From an uncultured Dongia sp. (GTDB lineage: Bacteria > Pseudomonadota > Alphaproteobacteria > Dongiales > Dongiaceae), in contig NZ_CAKZGO010000004.1 in the NCBI RefSeq assembly GCF_936916975.1, positions 434,001 through 498,000 of the forward strand: a DNA stretch of 64,000 bases, given 5' to 3'. The notes beneath the pieces are model-generated. The model was not told where the DNA came from, made no database searches, and saw only the letters and a program-made list of their open reading frames with translations. The translations under genes and the position numbers were made by a program. Below are positions 1,795-10,473 of this stretch, in pieces (position 1 is the first letter of the stretch; every line of letters starts with the position of its first letter).

Positions 1795-3054
1795 ATGGTT
1801 GCCATGTCACAAAACGGTATCAAGATCACGGTGCAGAAATTCCCGCCGCCCTTGCCGCTGGTCTGGGCCTGCCTGCCCGATGGCGGCGATCAGGTGACCA
1901 GGCTGCACAAGGTGCATTACCGGGCCATCTGGCGCAGCCGCAATTTGCTGGGCGCGCTGGAGATGATGGCGCTGTTTCTGCTGTGGCCCTTCCTGCTGTT
2001 CCCGCGCATCCGCCAGGCGACGCGGCGCAACGGCGCGATGATCGAGCAGCGCACCGGCAAGAGCCGCCTGCGACAGATGTGGGAGCAACTGGTCCTCGCC
2101 GCCAAATTCGGCATCCGGCCGGACTTTTACTACAAGATGGAGTTCTTTCTGCCTGAGCGCCTGCAGCTCGCCGGCGGCTATGTGCATCGCTACGCCACCA
2201 AGGATTCGCTCTACCGCCTGCTCAAGCCGGATGGTGTGGGCCTGTCGCCCCTTACCGACAAGGTCGGCTTTGCGCGCTATTGCGAAGAACGCGACCTCAA
2301 GGTGGCGCCGATCATCGCCGCCTTGCAGGGCGGGCAGATCGTTGGCCCCTTCAACGGCCTGCCGCCGATTGATCTCTTCATCAAGCGCACCCGCGGCCGC
2401 GGCGGTAGCGGGGCGGAATTGTGGACCTATGCCGATGGCCGCTATCATACGCGGGAGGGTCTCGACCTCGATGCCGATGCGCTGCTGGCGCGGGTTACCG
2501 AACTGTCGAAGCGCGAACCCTATCTGGTGCAGGAGCGGCTGGTGAACGATGCGGCCCTGCGCGATCTTTGCCAGGGGGCGCTCGCCACGGTGCGCATGGT
2601 CAGCGCCATCAACGAACAAGGCGAGCCGGAAGCGATCCGCGCCGTCTTTCGCATGCCGAGCCGGGCCGAGAGCATCGTCGACAATTACCATGCCGGCGGC
2701 ATCGCCGCGGCCATTGACCTTGCCACCGGCGAGCTAGGCTCAGCCACGGATATGGGCCTGGCGCCGAGCCTCGGCTGGGTCGATGTGCATCCGATCTCCG
2801 GGGCGCAGATCAAGGGCCGCGTCCTGCCGCGCTGGCCGGAGATGCTGGCCTTGGTGCTGCGCGCCCATGGCCAGTTCGCCGACCGCGCCATCATCGGCTG
2901 GGATGTGGCACTCACCGACCAGGGGCTCGTGATTGTCGAAGGCAATGCCGCCTCCGACACCGATATCATCCAGCGCTGCCACCGCGCGCCCCTGAGCCAG
3001 TCGCGCTATCCCGAACTGATGAACTGGCATCTCACCAAACTAGGCCGGATGTAA
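1795..3054 (+). CDS. Sugar-transfer-associated ATP-grasp family protein
   Basis: About 419 residues. It resembles the ATP-grasp family associated with sugar transfer (ATPgrasp_ST type). An ATP-binding region IKRTRGRGGSGAELW lies near residue 200 and the metal/ATP motif GWDVALTDQGLVIVEGN near residue 368. The N-terminal third is basic, with a hydrophobic stretch MALFLLWPFLLF that may attach it to the membrane. The ATG at 1795 is chosen because GGGAG (1780-1784) sits 10 bases upstream; ATGs at 1774 and 1804 are alternatives. Family members are thought to ligate or modify carboxylates in cell-surface polysaccharide loci, but no glycosyltransferases are adjacent, so the substrate is unknown. Confidence 0.75.
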   Translation: MVAMSQNGIKITVQKFPPPLPLVWACLPDGGDQVTRLHKVHYRAIWRSRNLLGALEMMALFLLWPFLLFPRIRQATRRNGAMIEQRTGKSRLRQMWEQLVLAAKFGIRPDFYYKMEFFLPERLQLAGGYVHRYATKDSLYRLLKPDGVGLSPLTDKVGFARYCEERDLKVAPIIAALQGGQIVGPFNGLPPIDLFIKRTRGRGGSGAELWTYADGRYHTREGLDLDADALLARVTELSKREPYLVQERLVNDAALRDLCQGALATVRMVSAINEQGEPEAIRAVFRMPSRAESIVDNYHAGGIAAAIDLATGELGSATDMGLAPSLGWVDVHPISGAQIKGRVLPRWPEMLALVLRAHGQFADRAIIGWDVALTDQGLVIVEGNAASDTDIIQRCHRAPLSQSRYPELMNWHLTKLGRM

Positions 3055-3066
3055 GGACCCGCCCGT

Positions 3067-3477
3067 TCACATCGGCTTTTCGCAATTGACCATCCAGGGT
3101 ATGCCGAACTTGTCCTGGAGCATGCCGAAGCGCTGCGCCCAGAAGGTCTCGGCGATCGGCATCGTGACCTTGCCGCCGGCTGACAGCGCCTCGAACAGGC
3201 GGTCGGCCTCGGCCGGCGCGTCGACCACGAGCGAGACCGTCATGCCCTTGGTCTCGACATGCTCGTCGGTATAGGCATCGGACGCCATCAGCACCTGATC
3301 ACCGAGCACGATACGGGCGTGCGCGATGCGACCGCGGATGCCGGCCGGCGTATCGGCGGCCATCGGCGTGTCGGCATAGCTCATCATCATGGCGACCTGC
3401 GTGCGCAGGCATTTGGCGTAGAATTCCATCGCCTGTTTGCAGTCGCCATTGAAGGTCAGATAGGGATTGATCTTCAT
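3067..3477 (-). CDS. VOC family protein (PhnB/glyoxalase-like)
   Basis: 136 residues from the ATG at 3477, which is preceded by GGAG; another ATG lies directly upstream at 3480 and the open frame extends to 3546. The start MKINPYLTFNGDCKQAMEFYAKCL and the end FGMLQDKFGIPWMVNCEKPM are typical of PhnB-like vicinal oxygen chelate proteins. These are small metal-binding enzymes, or proteins without demonstrated activity. The conserved GDQVLMASDA strand is present. It lies just downstream of a DUF1428 gene on the same strand, so the two are probably cotranscribed. The substrate is unknown. Confidence 0.8.
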   Translation of the reverse strand: MKINPYLTFNGDCKQAMEFYAKCLRTQVAMMMSYADTPMAADTPAGIRGRIAHARIVLGDQVLMASDAYTDEHVETKGMTVSLVVDAPAEADRLFEALSAGGKVTMPIAETFWAQRFGMLQDKFGIPWMVNCEKPM

Positions 3478-3559
3478 CATCGTCTCCATGTGGGTTTTAT
3501 CGCACGCGAAATCCTGCCGAAATCCGGCAGACAGAATGAAATTCATGAGGTCAGCGAGG

Positions 3560-3916
3560 TCAGGCGCTCACCAAGACCTCGAAGCCGCCATAAGTCATGC
3601 GCTTCATATCGAACGGCATGCTGCTCATATCCATGCCGGCGAGCCGCGGATCCTTGATCACTTTGGCGTTGACCTTGTCGCGGTGAGCGCGGGATTTGAA
3701 CACGATCCAGGAGAACACCACCGTCTCGCCGCGCTTCATCTTGGTCAGGCGCGGAAAGGGCAGGCCGTATTTGATGTCCAGATTCTCGCCAACGCATTCA
3801 CGCACCTCGAGGGCGCCATGCTCGCGCCAGATCTTCGCGGCCTTCGACGCCAGGCGACGATAGGCGGGCAGGTTCTTCTTGAGAATGGGCAGCACATAGC
3901 CATCGACATAACGCAT
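3560..3916 (-). CDS. DUF1428 family protein (YbaA-like)
   Basis: 118 residues. The sequence MRYVDGYVLPILKKNLPAYRRLASKAAKIWREHGALE followed by MKRGETVVFSWIVFKSRAHRD matches the DUF1428 family, small ferredoxin-fold-like dimeric proteins of unknown function. DUF1428 and PhnB-like VOC genes are often neighbours of SigJ/ECF41-type sigma factors, and such a sigma factor lies 0.7 kb away here. The 197-base gap upstream (3917-4113) holds its promoter and that of the divergent DUF1772 gene. Confidence 0.8.
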   Translation of the reverse strand: MRYVDGYVLPILKKNLPAYRRLASKAAKIWREHGALEVRECVGENLDIKYGLPFPRLTKMKRGETVVFSWIVFKSRAHRDKVNAKVIKDPRLAGMDMSSMPFDMKRMTYGGFEVLVSA

Positions 3917-4113
3917 CGCTTCCTCCGACTTTTCTGAGCGCGGCTATGCGCATCCTGGTCGGAAGCCTGCCGCTGGTTAACAAAAGGTTGATATCAACAT
4001 ATTGACCGGTTGTCAAATCTTGCGGATCCTCGGTCTTGCGCACCCCTTGGCGGGATGCCCGACTTTCTCATATCTTGGCCCACCGCCGGTCGTGGCGGCC
4101 ATGGAGATATGCA

Positions 4114-4602
4114 ATGCTTCAGAATTTGGTTTGCCACTTCGCCTTCATTGCGGCGCTGGGGGCAGGTCTTATCGCCGGCGCCTTCTTCGCCTTTTCAAAC
4201 TTTGTCATGCGCGCGCTGGGTCGCCTGCCGGCGCCCCACGGCATCGCCGCGATGCAGTCGATCGACATCGTGGTGATCAACCCGGTCTTCCTCGGTGTGT
4301 TCATGGGGACGGCGGGCGTTGGCGCGTTGTTGGCCGTCCTCGCCTGTCTCAGCTGGACGACACCCGGCAGCGCCTACCTGCTGGCGGCCGGCGCACTTTA
4401 CATCGTGGGGACGTTCCTCGTCACCATGATCCGCAACGTGCCGCTCAATAATGAGCTGGCGGCCGTGGCGCCTGACAGCAGCGAGGGGGCGGCCCTATGG
4501 ACGCGCTATCTGAGCGACTGGGTCTTCTGGAATCACGTGCGGACTGTGGCCGCCTTGCTCAGTTGCGGCGGTTACATCCTCGCCATCAGCAGCCTGGTCT
4601 AG
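4114..4602 (+). CDS. DUF1772 family membrane protein (anthrone-oxygenase-like)
   Basis: 162 residues. The ATG at 4114 is chosen because GGAG (4103-4106) lies 7 bases upstream; longer frames lack a ribosome site. It has four predicted membrane helices (about residues 8-30, 50-75, 82-105, 140-160). The motifs AGAFFAFSNFVMRALGRLP, IVVINPVFLGVFMGTA and WNHVRTVAALLS are typical of DUF1772. Family members include fungal anthrone oxygenases, but bacterial members are uncharacterised. It converges on the sigma factor gene, overlapping its end by 4 bases. Confidence 0.8.
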   Translation: MLQNLVCHFAFIAALGAGLIAGAFFAFSNFVMRALGRLPAPHGIAAMQSIDIVVINPVFLGVFMGTAGVGALLAVLACLSWTTPGSAYLLAAGALYIVGTFLVTMIRNVPLNNELAAVAPDSSEGAALWTRYLSDWVFWNHVRTVAALLSCGGYILAISSLV

Positions 4603-5471
4603 GCACCCTGATGCTGCAGATGGCGGAGCTTGTCGGGGTTGCGCACGATGTAGATGGCCGTGATCCTGCCGTCTTCGATGGCAAAGGCCATGGTCTGCAA
4701 AGTCTCGCCGATTTCGATGGTGACGTAGCCCGGCAGACCGTCGATGTCGCCCTGATAGAGGATCTGCGGTGTCGCAAAGCCAGGCAGGCGCGCAAATCCG
4801 CCAAAGACATGCAACACCTTCTCGATGCCTTCGAGCGGCACGCCGGCAGCCGGTTTCTTGCCCCCGCCATCGGAATAGACGATGACATCATTGGCCAGCA
4901 CCTTGCGCAGTCCCGCCATGTCACCCTGGCGCGCGGCGGTGAAAAAGGCGGCGGCGATGTCGCGCCCCTGCTCCGCCGAGACCGGAAAGCGGGGCTTGGC
5001 GGCTTGCACATGGCTGCGCGCCCGTGTCGCCAATTGCCGGCAGGCCGCGGGGTCCCGCTCGATCGCCTGCCCGACGTCATCGAATCCCATGCCGAACACG
5101 TCATGGAGCAGGAAGGCCGCGCGCTCCAAGGGTGAGAGGCGTTCCAGCGCCATCATCAAAGCGAGGGTCAAATCATCAGCATCGTCTTCCGCCGCCTGTT
5201 CCACGAGCGGTTCCGGAACCCAGGGACCGATATAGGTTTCCCGCTGCACCCGCGCCGATTTCAGATGATCGAGGCAGAGCCGCGTCACCACCTTGGCAAG
5301 GAATGCCTGCGCGTTCGCGACAACGCTGCGATCGGTCTGATGCCAGCGCAGATAGGCTTCCTGCACCATGTCCTCGGCCTCCGCCACCGAGCCCAGCATG
5401 CGATAGGCGACGCGGACCAGCCGCGCGCGATGCGGGGCAAAAGTGGCGGCGGAGTCCTGAGGTGCGCTCAT
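4599..5471 (-). CDS. ECF41-type sigma factor with fused SnoaL-like C-terminal domain
   Basis: 290 residues. Region 2 (HRARLVRVAYRMLGSVAEAEDMVQEAYLRW) and region 4 (LERLSPLERAAFLLHDVFGMGFDDVGQ) are followed by a SnoaL-like domain of about 120 residues. Three signature segments of group ECF41 are present: the linker WVPEPL, the SDGGGK loop and the C-terminal NPDKL. In this group the fused domain replaces a separate anti-sigma factor and tunes activity. The ATG (5471) overlaps the TGA of the AhpD-like gene (ATGA), so translation is coupled. An ECF41-type promoter precedes the operon, which implies autoregulation. Confidence 0.9.
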   Translation of the reverse strand: MSAPQDSAATFAPHRARLVRVAYRMLGSVAEAEDMVQEAYLRWHQTDRSVVANAQAFLAKVVTRLCLDHLKSARVQRETYIGPWVPEPLVEQAAEDDADDLTLALMMALERLSPLERAAFLLHDVFGMGFDDVGQAIERDPAACRQLATRARSHVQAAKPRFPVSAEQGRDIAAAFFTAARQGDMAGLRKVLANDVIVYSDGGGKKPAAGVPLEGIEKVLHVFGGFARLPGFATPQILYQGDIDGLPGYVTIEIGETLQTMAFAIEDGRITAIYIVRNPDKLRHLQHQGA

Positions 5472-5911
5472 GATTTTGGGTGCGGCGTCTGGAAGGCGAC
5501 GTTGATGCGGTTCCAAGCATTGATCGTGGTGATCGCCAGGGTCAGCTGCACTTGTTCCTCCGGGGTGAATTGCGCCTGCAGGGCCTGGAAATCGGTGTCA
5601 GAGACGGGCGCGTTGTTGACGTTGGTCACGGCCTCGGTCCAGGCCAGGGCAGCGCGTTCACGCTCACTATAAAGCGGCGATTCGCGCCAGGCACTCAGCA
5701 AATAGAGGCGCATTTCTGTCTCGTCATGAGCACGGGCGTCCTTGGCATGCATGTGCAGGCAGAAGGCGCAGCCATTGATCTGCGAGGCGCGCATCTCGAT
5801 GAGGCAGAGAAGGCTGTGTTCGAGACCGGATTTCTGTACATGGCCGCTGAAGTCGAGCAGCGCCTGCATGTCCTTGGGGGCTGCCTGGAAGGAATTGAGA
5901 CGGGCTTTCAT
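5468..5911 (-). CDS. Carboxymuconolactone decarboxylase/AhpD-like protein
   Basis: 147 residues from the ATG at 5911, preceded by AGGAAA. The AhpD-type redox site is seen as C48-AF-C51 followed by H53 and H55 (NGCAFCLHMHAKDAR), in a helical fold of the carboxymuconolactone decarboxylase superfamily. This is the usual partner of ECF41 sigma factors. Its likely role is peroxidase-like or thiol-redox chemistry on an unknown substrate. It is the first gene of a two-gene operon with the sigma factor. Confidence 0.88.
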   Translation of the reverse strand: MKARLNSFQAAPKDMQALLDFSGHVQKSGLEHSLLCLIEMRASQINGCAFCLHMHAKDARAHDETEMRLYLLSAWRESPLYSERERAALAWTEAVTNVNNAPVSDTDFQALQAQFTPEEQVQLTLAITTINAWNRINVAFQTPHPKS

Positions 5912-5948
5912 GGTCGTTTTCCTGCGTTTGGGTGGGATACGCAGATAA

Positions 5949-5975
5949 GACGAGCGGGCCATGGCGCGTGTGACA
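5949..5975 (-). promoter_or_regulatory. ECF41-type promoter: TGTCACA-N16-CGTC
   Basis: On the minus strand, TGTCACA (5975-5969) is followed by exactly 16 bases and CGTC (5952-5949). This equals the published consensus for ECF41 targets. It lies about 38 bases before the start of the AhpD-like gene, so the predicted leader is about 30 bases. The encoded sigma factor is the obvious reader. Confidence 0.85.
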
Positions 5976-5989
5976 TGGGTGCAAAAAAT

Positions 5990-6625
5990 TCAGCGTGCCC
6001 GGCGGAAGGTGAGGTTGATGCGCTGCGCGCCGAGTTCCGGATGCGATCCGTCCTTCAAGGGCGCCACCCCGTGATAGCGCAGGCGCGACGGCCCGCCCCA
6101 GACCACGACATCGCCGTGAAAGAGCGGGATGCGGCGTTGCTTGTCGCTGCGACCCATCCCACCCCACAGGAAGGTCGCCGGCAATCCCAGGGACACGGAG
6201 ACGATCGGCTGGGTGAAATCCCCCTCATCCTTGTCCTGGTGCAAGGTGAGGCGCGTGCCGGGTTCATAGCGGTTGACCAGGCAGACGTCCGACCGGAAGT
6301 CGGGGAATCCGGCAGCTTGGGCGGCAGAAACGGCGAGGTGCAGGAACTCGGGAGGCATCGGCGGCCAGGCGTGCTTGGTCTCAGGGTCCAGCGGATCGTA
6401 GCGATAGCCGCTGCGGTCGGACACCCAGCCATAGGCACCGCAATTGGTCATGGCGACGGACATGCGGAAGCCGCCGGGTGTGATCAGATGCCGGAAGGGA
6501 GAAGCGACCGCGATTCCTCTGACGGCAGCCAGCAGGGCCGGCGCGGTATCGAGGGCGAAGCCACGCAGCAGCATGGCACCCTCATCCAGGGCTTCAACCG
6601 GCTCGGCAAACAGATCGGCGTTCAT
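5990..6625 (-). CDS. alkB: Alpha-ketoglutarate-dependent DNA repair dioxygenase AlkB
   Basis: 211 residues, close to the E. coli protein. It reverses 1-methyladenine and 3-methylcytosine damage by oxidative demethylation. The iron ligands are visible as H129 and D131 (LTLHQDKDE) and H185 (RYHGVAPL). The 2-oxoglutarate arginines are R202 and R208 (QRINLTFRRAR). The substrate-contact segment NRYEPGTRL is conserved. It is the last gene of an operon with an Ada variant and a second 2OG oxygenase, 9 bases after the latter. Confidence 0.95.
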   Translation of the reverse strand: MNADLFAEPVEALDEGAMLLRGFALDTAPALLAAVRGIAVASPFRHLITPGGFRMSVAMTNCGAYGWVSDRSGYRYDPLDPETKHAWPPMPPEFLHLAVSAAQAAGFPDFRSDVCLVNRYEPGTRLTLHQDKDEGDFTQPIVSVSLGLPATFLWGGMGRSDKQRRIPLFHGDVVVWGGPSRLRYHGVAPLKDGSHPELGAQRINLTFRRAR

Positions 6626-6634
6626 GACAGGACT

Positions 6635-7321
6635 TCATTGCGCATCGTGAAAGATGATCCCGAGCGTGTGGCGATGTCCAGCACGCAGGCGGCTGACGCC
6701 ATGGCGCAGATTGACGCGGTAGGGACCCCGCGTGCCCTGCACCGGCCGGTGATGGACCGCAAAGACGACCGCGTCGCCTTTCTGCAAGGACACGACCGTC
6801 GGGCGCGATTGCTGGCGCGGGCGCTGTTCGGTGAGGACGAATTCGCCACCGGTGAAATCCGCTCCGGGTTGCGACAGCAGGACGGCGATCTGCAGTGGAA
6901 AGGCGAGCGCCCCGTAAAGATCCTGGTGCAGGCAATTATAATCTCCGGCCTGGTAGCGCAGGAGGAGCGGCGTCGGTCGCGTCTGGCCGGCGTCATGGCA
7001 TTGCCGGATGAAATCGGCATGCAGCGCGGGATAGCGCAGATCCAATCCCATCGTCTCGTTCCAGCGATCGGCAATCGGCGCCAGATGAGGATAGATGCTT
7101 TGCCGCAGATCTTTGACCAGCGGCGGCAACGGATAGCTGAAATATTTGTATTCACCGCGGCCGAAGCCATGTCGTTCCATCACCACGCGGCTGCGATAGC
7201 GGTCGGCCATATCGTAGCCGGCGACCAAAGCATCACAGGCATCGGCTGTCAGAAAGCCCGGCAGAACGGCATGGCCCTGGGCATCAAGGTCCATGCCGAT
7301 GGCCGGCCAATCCAAATCCAT
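6635..7321 (-). CDS. 2OG-Fe(II) oxygenase of the alkylation-repair operon, function unknown
   Basis: 228 residues from the ATG at 7321, which lies 2 bases after the ada stop. Iron ligands H132 and D134 (NCLHQDLYG) and H207 (LRHGVSRL) are present, with the conserved end RHTLGIIFHDAQ. The core FPLQIAVLLSQPGADFTGGEFVL is that of prolyl-4-hydroxylase/2OG-oxygenase-type folds, and the protein is not similar to AlkB outside the fold. Its position between ada and alkB suggests a role in alkylation damage, possibly oxidative demethylation of another lesion. This is inferred from context only. Confidence 0.8.
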   Translation of the reverse strand: MDLDWPAIGMDLDAQGHAVLPGFLTADACDALVAGYDMADRYRSRVVMERHGFGRGEYKYFSYPLPPLVKDLRQSIYPHLAPIADRWNETMGLDLRYPALHADFIRQCHDAGQTRPTPLLLRYQAGDYNCLHQDLYGALAFPLQIAVLLSQPGADFTGGEFVLTEQRPRQQSRPTVVSLQKGDAVVFAVHHRPVQGTRGPYRVNLRHGVSRLRAGHRHTLGIIFHDAQ

Positions 7322-7323
7322 GG

Positions 7324-8076
7324 TCAACGCCGGGCTTCCCGCGCCAGGAGCTTTTCCTTCCGCGCGACGCCCCAGCGATAGCCTGAGAGCGCACCGTCGC
7401 CACGCAGCACGCGGTGGCACGGCACCGCGACCGCGACAGCATTGGCACCACAAGCGGCTGCCACCGCCCGCACTGCCTGCGGTGCCTCGATGCGCCGCGC
7501 GACCTCACCATAGCTTGCCGTCTCACCCGCCGGGATCTGCTGCAACGCCTGCCACACCTGATGCTGGAAGTCGGTGCCGCGCAGGTCCAGCGGCAACGTA
7601 AAAGACTGCGCCGGATCGGCAATCAAGACAGCAGCCTTGGCAAATTGATCGGCAAGGCCAGCATTATCGGCCAGCAGCAGTGCTTGCGGAAATCGATGTT
7701 TGAGATCGGTCGAAAGTTCCACGACATTGTCGCCGAGCAGCAGAGCGCAGATACCCTGCTGCGACACGGCCAACAGCATGGTGCCCAACGCGCTGGGGCC
7801 GGTGGCATAGCGTATCGTCTCGTGTTCCGCATCCGGCTTGCAGCGTTTGCAGGGACGGAAGCCTGCTTCCTCGGCAGCCAACCGGGTCTCATGGAAGGCA
7901 ACATTCTCCGGCCGTGCCGGACGCGCCTTGCAAGAAGGCCGGCAATAGACGCCGCTAGTCTTGACGGAATAATAGAAGCCGCCATCGGCCGACGCGTCAC
8001 GCGCGAGCACGGCCTGCCAGCGGGGATCGGCGAGCGTATCGGCGGCACGTTGCGCCTGGTTCTTGGAGCGGATCAT
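7324..8076 (-). CDS. ada: Ada variant: methylphosphotriester domain fused to O6-methylguanine methyltransferase, lacking the AraC HTH
   Basis: 250 residues. The N-terminal Ada zinc domain has C45, C49, C76 and C79 (GVYCRPSCK, FRPCKRCKPD), where C45 would accept the methyl group. The chain then goes almost directly into the methyltransferase domain, with active C220 in the motif VPCHRVLRG followed by SGYRWGVARKEKLL. E. coli Ada is 354 residues; the missing part corresponds to its AraC-type DNA-binding domain. The ATG at 8076 is preferred because AAGGAAC (8082-8088) precedes it; a GTG at 8091 is the alternative. It is the first gene of the operon ada-oxygenase-alkB. How the operon is induced without the HTH is open. 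Confidence 0.9.
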   Translation of the reverse strand: MIRSKNQAQRAADTLADPRWQAVLARDASADGGFYYSVKTSGVYCRPSCKARPARPENVAFHETRLAAEEAGFRPCKRCKPDAEHETIRYATGPSALGTMLLAVSQQGICALLLGDNVVELSTDLKHRFPQALLLADNAGLADQFAKAAVLIADPAQSFTLPLDLRGTDFQHQVWQALQQIPAGETASYGEVARRIEAPQAVRAVAAACGANAVAVAVPCHRVLRGDGALSGYRWGVARKEKLLAREARR

Positions 8077-8255
8077 CACTGTTCCTTTCACGGATGGATG
8101 TCATGCCGGATATGTAGCGCCGGCATCAGCTCCCGGCGCTCCGCTTCTTGCGCAACATCCACCGCGAAATCGATCAGACCCTCTCAAGGCCCTGATTGCC
8201 GAGGGTCTCAGTGGGGTGTGAGGTCGTCCCATAAGGCGGGTAAACAGGGCTGCCA

Positions 8256-8270
8256 TTAAGATGTCTTTAA
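8256..8270 (+). promoter_or_regulatory. CtrA-type box TTAA-N7-TTAA upstream of a chemoreceptor gene
   Basis: TTAAGATGTCTTTAA matches the alphaproteobacterial CtrA recognition pattern. It lies 97 bases before the likely chemoreceptor start. CtrA commonly controls motility and chemotaxis genes in this class, so the location makes sense, but binding is not shown. Confidence 0.45.
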
Positions 8271-8367
8271 GTTTTTCCGGACAATATCCCTATCGTTGTT
8301 CTGCCAACTGTCTACGATTCACCATTCATTTCGTGAAACGGCACTCGCCTCACTTATGAGAGATCCC

Positions 8368-10473
8368 ATGTCCAATGTGGTTCGCGCTTCCGGCCTGTCG
8401 ATCAAAACGATCCTGACGGGTGTCTTCGGCGCCGTGGCACTTCTGCTCGTGGCAAGCTCCGGCTGGTCGCTCTGGCATGGCTGGCGAAACTATGAAATTG
8501 CCAGGCATATCGAGGAAACCAGCGCCATCGACAAGCTGGTCTTCCAGGCCATGCAGGCCCTGCGCGACGATCGCAGCGGCCTCAACCGCGCGATGCTGTC
8601 GGAAGAACCGATCGATGCCGAAGGCCGCCAGGATCTCGACAAGGCCTATAAGAATGCAGCCACGAAATTGGCCACCGCGCTTGCGGCGATTGCCGGCGGC
8701 GATCTGCCGGATCGCGATCAATGGCTCGCCAGATTGCAGCAGGGTGCGGCGAAATATGACGGCCTCTACAGCCAAGGCTTGGCATCGCTCGACACACCCT
8801 TCGCCGAGCGCAACATGGATCTGCGCAAGGAATATTACGGTTACGCTGCCGATTTCGTTGACGACCTGAGCGAAGCTTCAGCCGATTTCGCAGGCTCCAT
8901 CCGCCTGGTCGATCCGGTGATCGATCAATTGCTGGCCGCACGCAGCCTGAGCTGGATCGTGCGCGATCAGGACTCCACCTTCCGCCGCCAGATCGAAGAC
9001 GCGCTGATCGCGGGCGAACTCACGCAAGGGGCCAAGGAAAAGGCCATCGACGCCAACGGCCGCGTGGAAACCGCCTGGGACATGTTGCTGAGCGTCCTCG
9101 ATGCCAGCGAGACGCGCACTGAAGTACAGGAAGCGATTGCTGGCATCAAACAAGGCTATTTCGCGGAATTTGCGCCCAAGCGCGATGAGATCTTCGAGAA
9201 GCTGGTGGCCGGTGAAAAGCTCGCCATGACCTCGAAGGAGTGGCGCGAATTTTCGAAGCCGCCCTCCGACCTGCTCAAAGGTTTCGTCGTCCTCGTGGTT
9301 GACATCGCCCAGACCCATGCCGCTGAAAGGACCGCTGCCTATCGCACCGGCCTGATGATGGATGCACTGCTGGTTCTCGCGGCCCTGCTGTTGTGCGGTC
9401 TCGGCCTCTATGTCGTCGGTCGCCGCGTGGTGCGCCCGATTTCCAACTTGACCACGGCCATGTCGGCTTTGGCGCAAGGCAATATTTCGGTCGAGGTGCC
9501 GGGTCTCGACCACAAGGATGAAATCGGCGCGATGGCCGCGGCGGTCGAGGTGTTCAAGGAAAATGCCGTCGAACGTCAGCGGCTGGAAGCCGCACAACAG
9601 GCCGAGCTCGCGGCGCGCCAGCAACGCGCCAAGACGGTCGAGGCATTGATCAGCACCTTCGATGATCAGATCAAGGACGTGCTCAACACCGTGACCGGCG
9701 CTGCCAGCCAATTGAATGGCACGGCGCAGGAAATGAGTGGTGCTGCCGCCGACAGCGCGGAAAAGGCAACTGCCGTTGCCGCCGCCTCGGAAGAAGCCAG
9801 CGCCAATGTGAAGACCGTTGCCGCCGCAGCCGGCGAGCTGACCAAATCGACCCACGAGATTGGCCAGCAGGTCACCATGTCGCAAAGCATTGCGCGCCAG
9901 GCGGTGACGGAGGCCGAACGCACCAACGGCACGGTGGCCGGCCTGGTCGAAACCGCGGCCAAGGTAGGGGAGGTGGTCGAGCTCATCAACTCGATCGCCT
10001 CGCAGACCAACCTCCTCGCCCTCAATGCGACGATCGAAGCGGCCCGTGCCGGCGATGCCGGCAAGGGCTTCGCCGTGGTGGCATCCGAGGTGAAAAACCT
10101 TGCCACCCAGACGGCGCACGCGACCGAGCAGATCGCCCGGCAGATCCAGGCCATGCAAGCGGTGAGCGGCGATGCTGCCAACGCCATCAAGGGCATCGGC
10201 AGCACCATCGTCCGTATCGATGAAATCGCCGGCGCGATTTCGGCGGCGGTCGAGGAGCAGAATGTTGCGACCGCCGAGATTGCCGGCAATGTCCAGCAGG
10301 CGGCCCGCGGCACCGAGGAAGTGTCCGGCAACATCGTCCAGGTCAACGAAGCGGCATCCCGCACCGGCGCCTCGGCCGATCAAGTGCTCTCGGCGGCACT
10401 GGACCTCACCCAGCAGGCCGAGACGATGCGCAGCATGGTGCTGAAATTCCTGGCCGAGATGCGCGCCGCCTGA
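8368..10473 (+). CDS. Methyl-accepting chemotaxis protein
   Basis: About 701 residues from the ATG at 8368 (ATG at 8356 is possible). Membrane helix 1 is near residues 12-36, followed by a periplasmic helical sensor of about 290 residues and membrane helix 2 at about 329-350. A HAMP domain ([22 protein letters not shown], then [17 protein letters not shown]) and a long coiled-coil signalling domain follow. The conserved hairpin tip [21 protein letters not shown], which binds CheA/CheW, starts near residue 541. The ligand is unknown. No CheR-docking pentapeptide is seen at the C terminus (KFLAEMRAA). No other chemotaxis gene is nearby. Confidence 0.93.

Follow-up and report, generated by a model that had tools for sequence, protein, structure and literature searches.

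A probable ECF41 sigma factor module in an uncultured Dongia sp. and the covariation of a region 2.4 residue with the first -10 base

Analysis of a 64,000-nucleotide stretch of DNA from an uncultured Dongia sp. (contig NZ_CAKZGO010000004.1, positions 434,001 to 498,000; the whole stretch is referred to as the window) identified an exact ECF41-type promoter in front of a gene for an AhpD-like carboxymuconolactone decarboxylase (CMD) and the gene for a sigma factor of the ECF41/SigJ subfamily. We consider it very probable that this is a canonical ECF41 module, whose factor reads TGTCACA-N16-CGTC and drives both the CMD gene and its own gene, with Asp68 reading the C of the -10 element. The locus is a standard ECF41 module and ordinary in itself, its promoter, gene order and regulation being of the kind that Wecke et al. 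(2012; PMC3426412) had described before; it adds one more such module and is useful as an anchor. Comparison with loci from other bacteria revealed covariation between the residue at position 68 and the base that opens the -10 element, and we think it likely that throughout the ECF41 family this region 2.4 residue sets that base, an acidic residue selecting C, and Asn, Ser or Thr selecting T or G.

The features of the locus are as follows.

5949..5975, minus strand: ECF41-type promoter, with the -35 element TGTCACA at 5975-5969, a 16-base spacer and the -10 element CGTC at 5952-5949
5468..5911, minus strand: AhpD-like CMD gene, 147 aa, with its ATG at 5911 (PF02627, TIGR00778)
4599..5471, minus strand: ECF41/SigJ-subfamily sigma factor, 290 aa, with sigma2, a WVPEPL linker, sigma4 and a SnoaL-like C-terminal domain
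5268..5270, minus strand: codon of Asp68, in the last sigma2 helix (region 2.4), which covaries with the first -10 base
5990..6625, minus strand: alkB (2OG-Fe(II) DNA demethylase; NF011930 above cut-off), a neighbour whose listing does not imply membership of the system

The promoter and the CMD-sigma gene pair

The minus-strand letters 5975-5949 (TGTCACACGCGCCATGGCCCGCTCGTC) comprise TGTCACA, 16 bases and CGTC with 0 mismatches, exactly as the original prediction had claimed. The distance of 38 bases that it gave from the promoter to the AhpD-like gene is actually 37 bases, from CGTC to the ATG at 5911. This was the single match to TGTCACA-CGTC with spacers of 15-18 in the whole window, in which 0.08 were expected, and at least one match occurred in 8 of 100 shuffles. 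When up to 2 mismatches were allowed the window contained 6 matches versus 14.7 expected, and for this reason no degenerate site was used. Transcription likely starts near G5942, which would produce a 5' leader of ~31 nt; the leader lengths reported by Wecke et al. are 31 and 32 nt in their Table 5 and 22/23 bp in their main text (PMC3426412).

The CMD protein matched PF02627 with an E value of 2.2e-18 and TIGR00778 (ahpD_dom) above its cut-off. A longer open reading frame for this gene begins with an ATG at 5962, within the promoter spacer, so that the longer form could not be made from the ECF41 promoter. The coupling of the AhpD-like gene to the sigma factor gene that had been predicted takes the form of an ATGA overlap at 5471-5468, shared by the TGA of the CMD gene (5470-5468) and the ATG of the sigma gene (5471-5469), and the two genes would form a two-gene operon.

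Pfam searches of the seven neighbouring proteins (eight including the sigma factor) identified no anti-sigma gene. Besides CMD, the neighbours were alkB, Oxygenase-NA, ada, an anthrone-oxygenase-like gene, a VOC-type gene and DUF1428. The combination of a CMD, oxidoreductase or epimerase neighbour with no anti-sigma gene, which is typical of ECF41, was therefore found here, with the CMD gene overlapping the sigma gene.

The alkB stop codon and the -35 element are 14 nt apart, and ada (7324 to ~8091), Oxygenase-NA and alkB constitute a minus-strand row at 5990-8091 of the window that leads straight into the ECF41 operon. The Ada-like protein has Ada_Zn_binding and a methyltransferase DNA-binding domain with no AraC-type HTH in Pfam, and so may not be an activator. 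The ada-alkB gene order was also present in one same-genus relative, represented by two entries (L006/L031). We considered this row as a part of the system and rejected it, as AlkB was identified only at the window's own place (L002, L005) and in L006/L031; with flanks of up to 1500 bases searched for L005-L030, the ada-alkB order is genus-level at most. On the other side, the DUF1428, VOC/glyoxalase-type and anthrone-oxygenase-like genes (3067-4602) adjoin the sigma gene, and the same set lies behind the sigma gene in L031.

Identity of the sigma factor

All three of the ECF41 marks that had been claimed for the protein, WVPEPL, SDGGGK and NPDKL, are present in it. Sigma70_r2 and Sigma70_r4_2 were both above their Pfam cut-offs and no Pfam sigma3 model matched the protein, which fits the sigma2/sigma4-only plan of ECF41 factors. 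The linker between these domains reads WVPEPL in the window and WLPEP in most of the rows of our alignments (A1 and A2, 32 rows each, hand-picked from the collected loci), and is thus of the WLPEP type that characterizes the family. The ECF41 C-terminal motifs are named DGGGR and NPDKL. Neither name was found in the text of PMC3426412. The window protein has the corresponding C-terminal extension of ~100 aa, SnoaL-like and with conserved motifs (SDGGGK and NPDKL), in which G202-204, P279, K281 and L282 were invariant in 32 aligned rows.

The fused SnoaL domain of the original prediction is supported by structure and fell short by profile. The SnoaL_2 profile matched the C-terminal piece weakly (E 0.001, 20.1 bits versus a cut-off of 27), below the Pfam threshold. 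The predicted model of the sigma factor (mean pLDDT 86.8) matched Mycobacterium tuberculosis SigJ (5xe7) with TM 0.73-0.77 over 295 alignment columns, the next structure being S. tsukubaensis SigG1, followed by shorter ketosteroid-isomerase and limonene-epoxide-hydrolase folds. The ketosteroid-isomerase-type matches appear to cover the C-terminal half of the model.

Curated family models, a test of our own choosing outside the published ECF41 definition, gave 376.5 bits for NF007214 (SigJ; cut-off 271) and 312.9 bits for TIGR02957 (SigX4), just under its cut-off of 323.25. SigJ 5xe7 was also the top sequence match among solved structures (E 5e-44). It belongs to the same subfamily and has the same overall fold as the window factor, but comes from a different host and has 33-34% identity to it in the structural alignment. 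Only one such sigma factor was identified in the whole genome (E up to 1e-5).

Relationship to published ECF41 loci

The ECF41 loci of Bacillus licheniformis (ydfG) and Rhodobacter sphaeroides (RSP_0606) have the same TGTCACA-n16-CGTC promoter and a CMD target, and share with the window the WLPEP-type linker motif, the C-terminal extension and the lack of an anti-sigma gene (PMC3426412). In ~1/3 of ECF41 loci the gene of the COE group (carboxymuconolactone decarboxylase, oxidoreductase or epimerase) precedes the sigma gene in the same orientation, and the promoters respond to their own factor, as determined for the factors of two species (PMC3426412). The window has this promoter in front of its COE gene, a further feature of ECF41 membership. 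It differs from the loci of Wecke et al. in its ATGA gene overlap and in the ada/alkB row directly upstream, both of which are known here from sequence. The -10 element of the B. licheniformis promoter is TGTT, unlike the CGTC of the window (PMC3426412).

The published model has the sigma factor direct transcription of the COE gene and also, where the two genes are co-transcribed, of its own gene (PMC3426412, PMC8999054). Given this model and the gene order in the window, we infer positive autoregulation without an anti-sigma factor. RNA polymerase with the window sigma factor would bind TGTCACA-N16-CGTC and transcribe the putative operon, first the CMD/AhpD-like enzyme gene and then the sigma gene, and the factor would thereby raise its own level. 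The fused SnoaL-like domain is thought to restrain the factor until a signal is received, and Asp68 would recognize the opening C of the -10 element, either directly or almost so. The deletion of the C-terminal domain that was proposed as a test of the original prediction had already been performed with the factors of two species by Wecke et al.: partial truncation increased activity ~20-fold for the B. licheniformis factor (in B. subtilis, a species that they state to lack ECF41 factors) and ~120-fold for the R. sphaeroides factor, and removal of the full domain abolished activity (PMC3426412). These authors knew of no inducing signal (PMC3426412).

Conservation of the promoter position

To place the promoter in a wider setting we used 105 loci, 26 of which were from the window's own and related genomes (window included) and 79 from named contigs; L001-L004 and the duplicate L031 were left out of these counts. 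In 67 of the 105 loci, the window among them, TGTCACA-N16-[CT]GTC occurred in the sense direction in the 1500 bases that precede the sigma gene, and in one locus it occurred there in the antisense direction. Spacers of 15 and 17 added 3 and 4 sites, respectively, and spacers of 8-14 and 18-25 gave 0-10 sites each, the 10 being for spacer 11. Where there was enough flanking sequence (65 N16 sites), T was the base before the -10 element in 85% and the second base behind that element in 65%; the TCGTCTT of the window fits both preferences. The motif was not matched at L008, a same-genus relative with CMD and sigma genes.

The conservation of position was important as counts of the motif in whole genomes were uninformative. 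The genome search for TGTCACA-N16-CGTC suggested in the original prediction found no enrichment, with 4 exact matches versus 8 for the reversed pattern at spacers 14-18 (4 versus 7 at spacers 15-17), and two same-genus genomes that lack an ECF41 match still had the motif 2 and 3 times. The motif being at chance level in genomes, its bare occurrence proves little, and it is position and conservation that carry the case: by arithmetic from the genome's own rate, the 100 bp in front of any one chosen gene should contain a match ~4 times in 100,000.

Exact matches across the 7 genomes of the genus, the window's own included, numbered 17 and were spread over 6 of these genomes. Of the matches, 5 (L002, L113, L118, L122 and L123) precede genes of ECF41 modules and one (L001) precedes an ArsR-like gene. 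In one relative (G004) the ECF41 pair is split over two contigs, the sigma gene on C24 (L118) and the CMD gene on C22 (L113), and both halves keep the exact motif, the promoter at L118 lying directly before the sigma gene. The presence of the motif at both places is as expected for a trans-acting regulator. At L001, in the window's own genome (C3:61495-61522), the motif has a 17-base spacer and lies 23 nt before a gene for an ArsR-type regulator fused to a low-molecular-weight phosphatase domain (ArsR-LMWPc).

Residue 68 covaries with the first -10 base

In the discovery set of 105 loci residue 68 was Asp in 68 of 68 loci whose -10 element began with C and Asn in 11 of 11 whose element began with T. 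This count accepted only sites whose -10 element opens with C or T, a restriction that makes a clean split more likely, and 26 of the 105 loci had no [CT] site, several of these showing Asn, Ser or Thr together with G. Later counts left the base open, using the pattern TGTCAC[AG]-N16-nGT[CT]. In 120 new loci, drawn from the phylum to which the genome of L066 (titled Anaerolineales) belongs, from the class of the window and from the genomes that contain six named loci, Asp occurred with C 42 times and with T once, and Asn with T 13 times, with G twice and with C 0 times; with control spacers of 13, 14, 18 and 19 the sites numbered 0 to 6 per spacer. In 29 loci from the class of L101 (Neobacillus) there were 24 Asp-C and 2 Glu-C sites, and 40 lower-ranked, hand-chosen Bacilli loci had 12 Asp-C, 1 Asp-T and 12 Asn-T. 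The 105 discovery and 120 new loci were de-duplicated by shared sequence, with the best-scoring sigma factor used where a locus had several, and the 69 Bacilli loci were counted without de-duplication. Loci beyond the automatic set were hand-chosen (40 + 40 from match listings and all 25 of the genome G096).

Over all 294 loci, C was the first -10 base at 143 of the 145 sites with Asp or Glu and at 0 of the 46 with Asn, Ser or Thr (36 T, 10 G). A strict site was present at 186 loci and absent from the stretch searched at the remaining 108. Of the two exceptions, both with Asp and a T site, L228 has that site 1354 bases past the sigma gene, as well as GGTCACA-N16-CGTC at -179, and L334 has it 854 bases before the sigma gene. 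Column 68 explained 93% of the C/not-C entropy, with the next best column at 42% (136 loci).

These data comprise 191 sites that are readable without experiment, and a near-perfect link between one residue and one base that is simple to try in a reporter strain. The link allows the -10 base to be predicted from the protein. If the proposed rule is true, the exchange of one residue should retarget a factor from CGTC to TGTC, partial insulation would be expected between loci that differ in this residue, paralogues of a single genome among them, and a structural suggestion as to who reads that C becomes a predictive rule for the whole family.

Structural reading of residue 68

In the predicted model residue 68 falls in the last sigma2 helix (residues 54-77), and it aligns with D79 of SigL. 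Lin et al. suggested a possible contact of SigL residues 78-82 with the C-G pair just upstream of the -10 element (PMC6372665), and by their numbering the covarying base here is that C. The SigL and SigH open-complex structures are comparable to our system in that the 78-82 stretch of SigL contains D79, the equivalent of residue 68; what differs is that our evidence is a family-wide covariation of the C with the D79-equivalent residue. Li et al. reported a bond between SigH N92 and the template base of the adjacent G:C pair, and stated that SigJ has Arg where SigH has N88 (PMC6411747). As the SigJ alignment shows this Arg to be R64 of the window factor, residue 68 would match SigH N92. Chemically, the amino group of C could donate a hydrogen bond to Asp or Glu, and T or G could accept one from Asn, Ser or Thr.

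A general code for the residue-base specificity of ECF factors was described by Todor et al. (2020, PNAS), as cited in PMC8103513, and is similar in pairing sigma2 residues with -10 bases. The pair of residue 68 and first base was not named in the literature titles and abstract openings searched, a search outside which most subscription papers lie, and its novelty is unproven.

Alternative explanations

One alternative is that the motif in the window is there by chance and that the operon depends on a housekeeping promoter or on transcription continuing from the ada-Oxygenase-NA-alkB genes upstream on the same strand. The excess of reversed-pattern matches in the genome is compatible with chance, and read-through would be in keeping with the distance of 14 nt from alkB to the motif, with the lack of a terminator-like site in that gap in our terminator scan, and with the retention of the gene order in the same-genus relative (L006/L031). 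Against this, the promoter position is kept in many relatives that have no alkB matches upstream, and the -10 base tracks sigma residue 68 across phyla. A sigma-70 scan of 3000-9000 with a crude consensus detected one site, at 7946 on the plus strand, and nothing before the CMD gene. Read-through could supplement the ECF41 promoter rather than replace it, and we consider this alternative very unlikely. To the idea that the factor controls a wider regulon here, for example the ArsR-LMWPc fusion gene, we give hardly any weight. The motif at L001 is exact and sensibly positioned, and the G004 CMD gene, on a different contig from its sigma gene, indicates that targets away from the sigma gene occur. 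However, no relative of the ArsR-like gene was detected at any of the 16 remaining motif loci in the own and same-genus genomes (~1500 bases per side for most), one of the four matches in the window's own genome is inside a long reading frame and one is antisense to one, and Wecke et al. identified no target outside the COE locus (PMC3426412). A wider regulon shared by the genus was rejected as well, 5 of the 17 matches preceding ECF41-module genes and the ArsR-like gene having no relative detected at the other matches.

The covariation itself could reflect lineage alone, with no contact between residue 68 and the base. Many of the loci are related, and the raw counts therefore overstate independence: on a quickly built tree of these 186 loci, made with column 68 left out and carrying one kind of support value, the residue class changes at least 13 times, which is far from 186 events. 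Nevertheless, in nine independent contrasts on starred branches of this tree the base followed the residue in 8.8 on average and never went in the opposite direction (median sign-test p 0.004), a smaller tree of 136 loci having provided 6 such pairs. In addition, no other sigma column comes near column 68, SigL D79 lies in the stretch that Lin et al. suggest is near this base and its neighbour (PMC6372665), and SigH N92, which by our alignment would be the matching position, touches the neighbouring base pair (PMC6411747). Lineage alone is consequently an unlikely explanation, and we favour the reading in which residue 68 specifies the first -10 base. For the window, the prediction that promoter and regulator identify each other is well supported by the SigJ/ECF41 subfamily score, the match to the SigJ structure, the conserved promoter and the pairing of Asp68 with C.

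ECF41 loci with other residues or targets

The TGTT promoter of B. licheniformis leads the rule to predict Asn at the position of residue 68; this locus was sought by its promoter string among the collected loci and was not found. The genome of Nonomuraea deserti (G096, the source of L096) had 25 matches to the window sigma factor (E up to 1e-25), and a strict site was nearby in 3 (L177, L180 and L189) of the 24 kept besides L096; there may be several promoter classes inside one family. Six Nonomuraea loci (L096, L097, L099, L103, L105 and L110) have Asn, Ser or Thr at residue 68, and in these TGTCACG-N16-GGTT occurs in the sense direction 38-64 bp past the aligned end of the sigma gene. In a group with Asn68 (L035, L036, L037, L039, L043 and L045) the TGTC promoter precedes a non-CMD gene of 111-131 aa whose product contains the stretch IRHxPGF.
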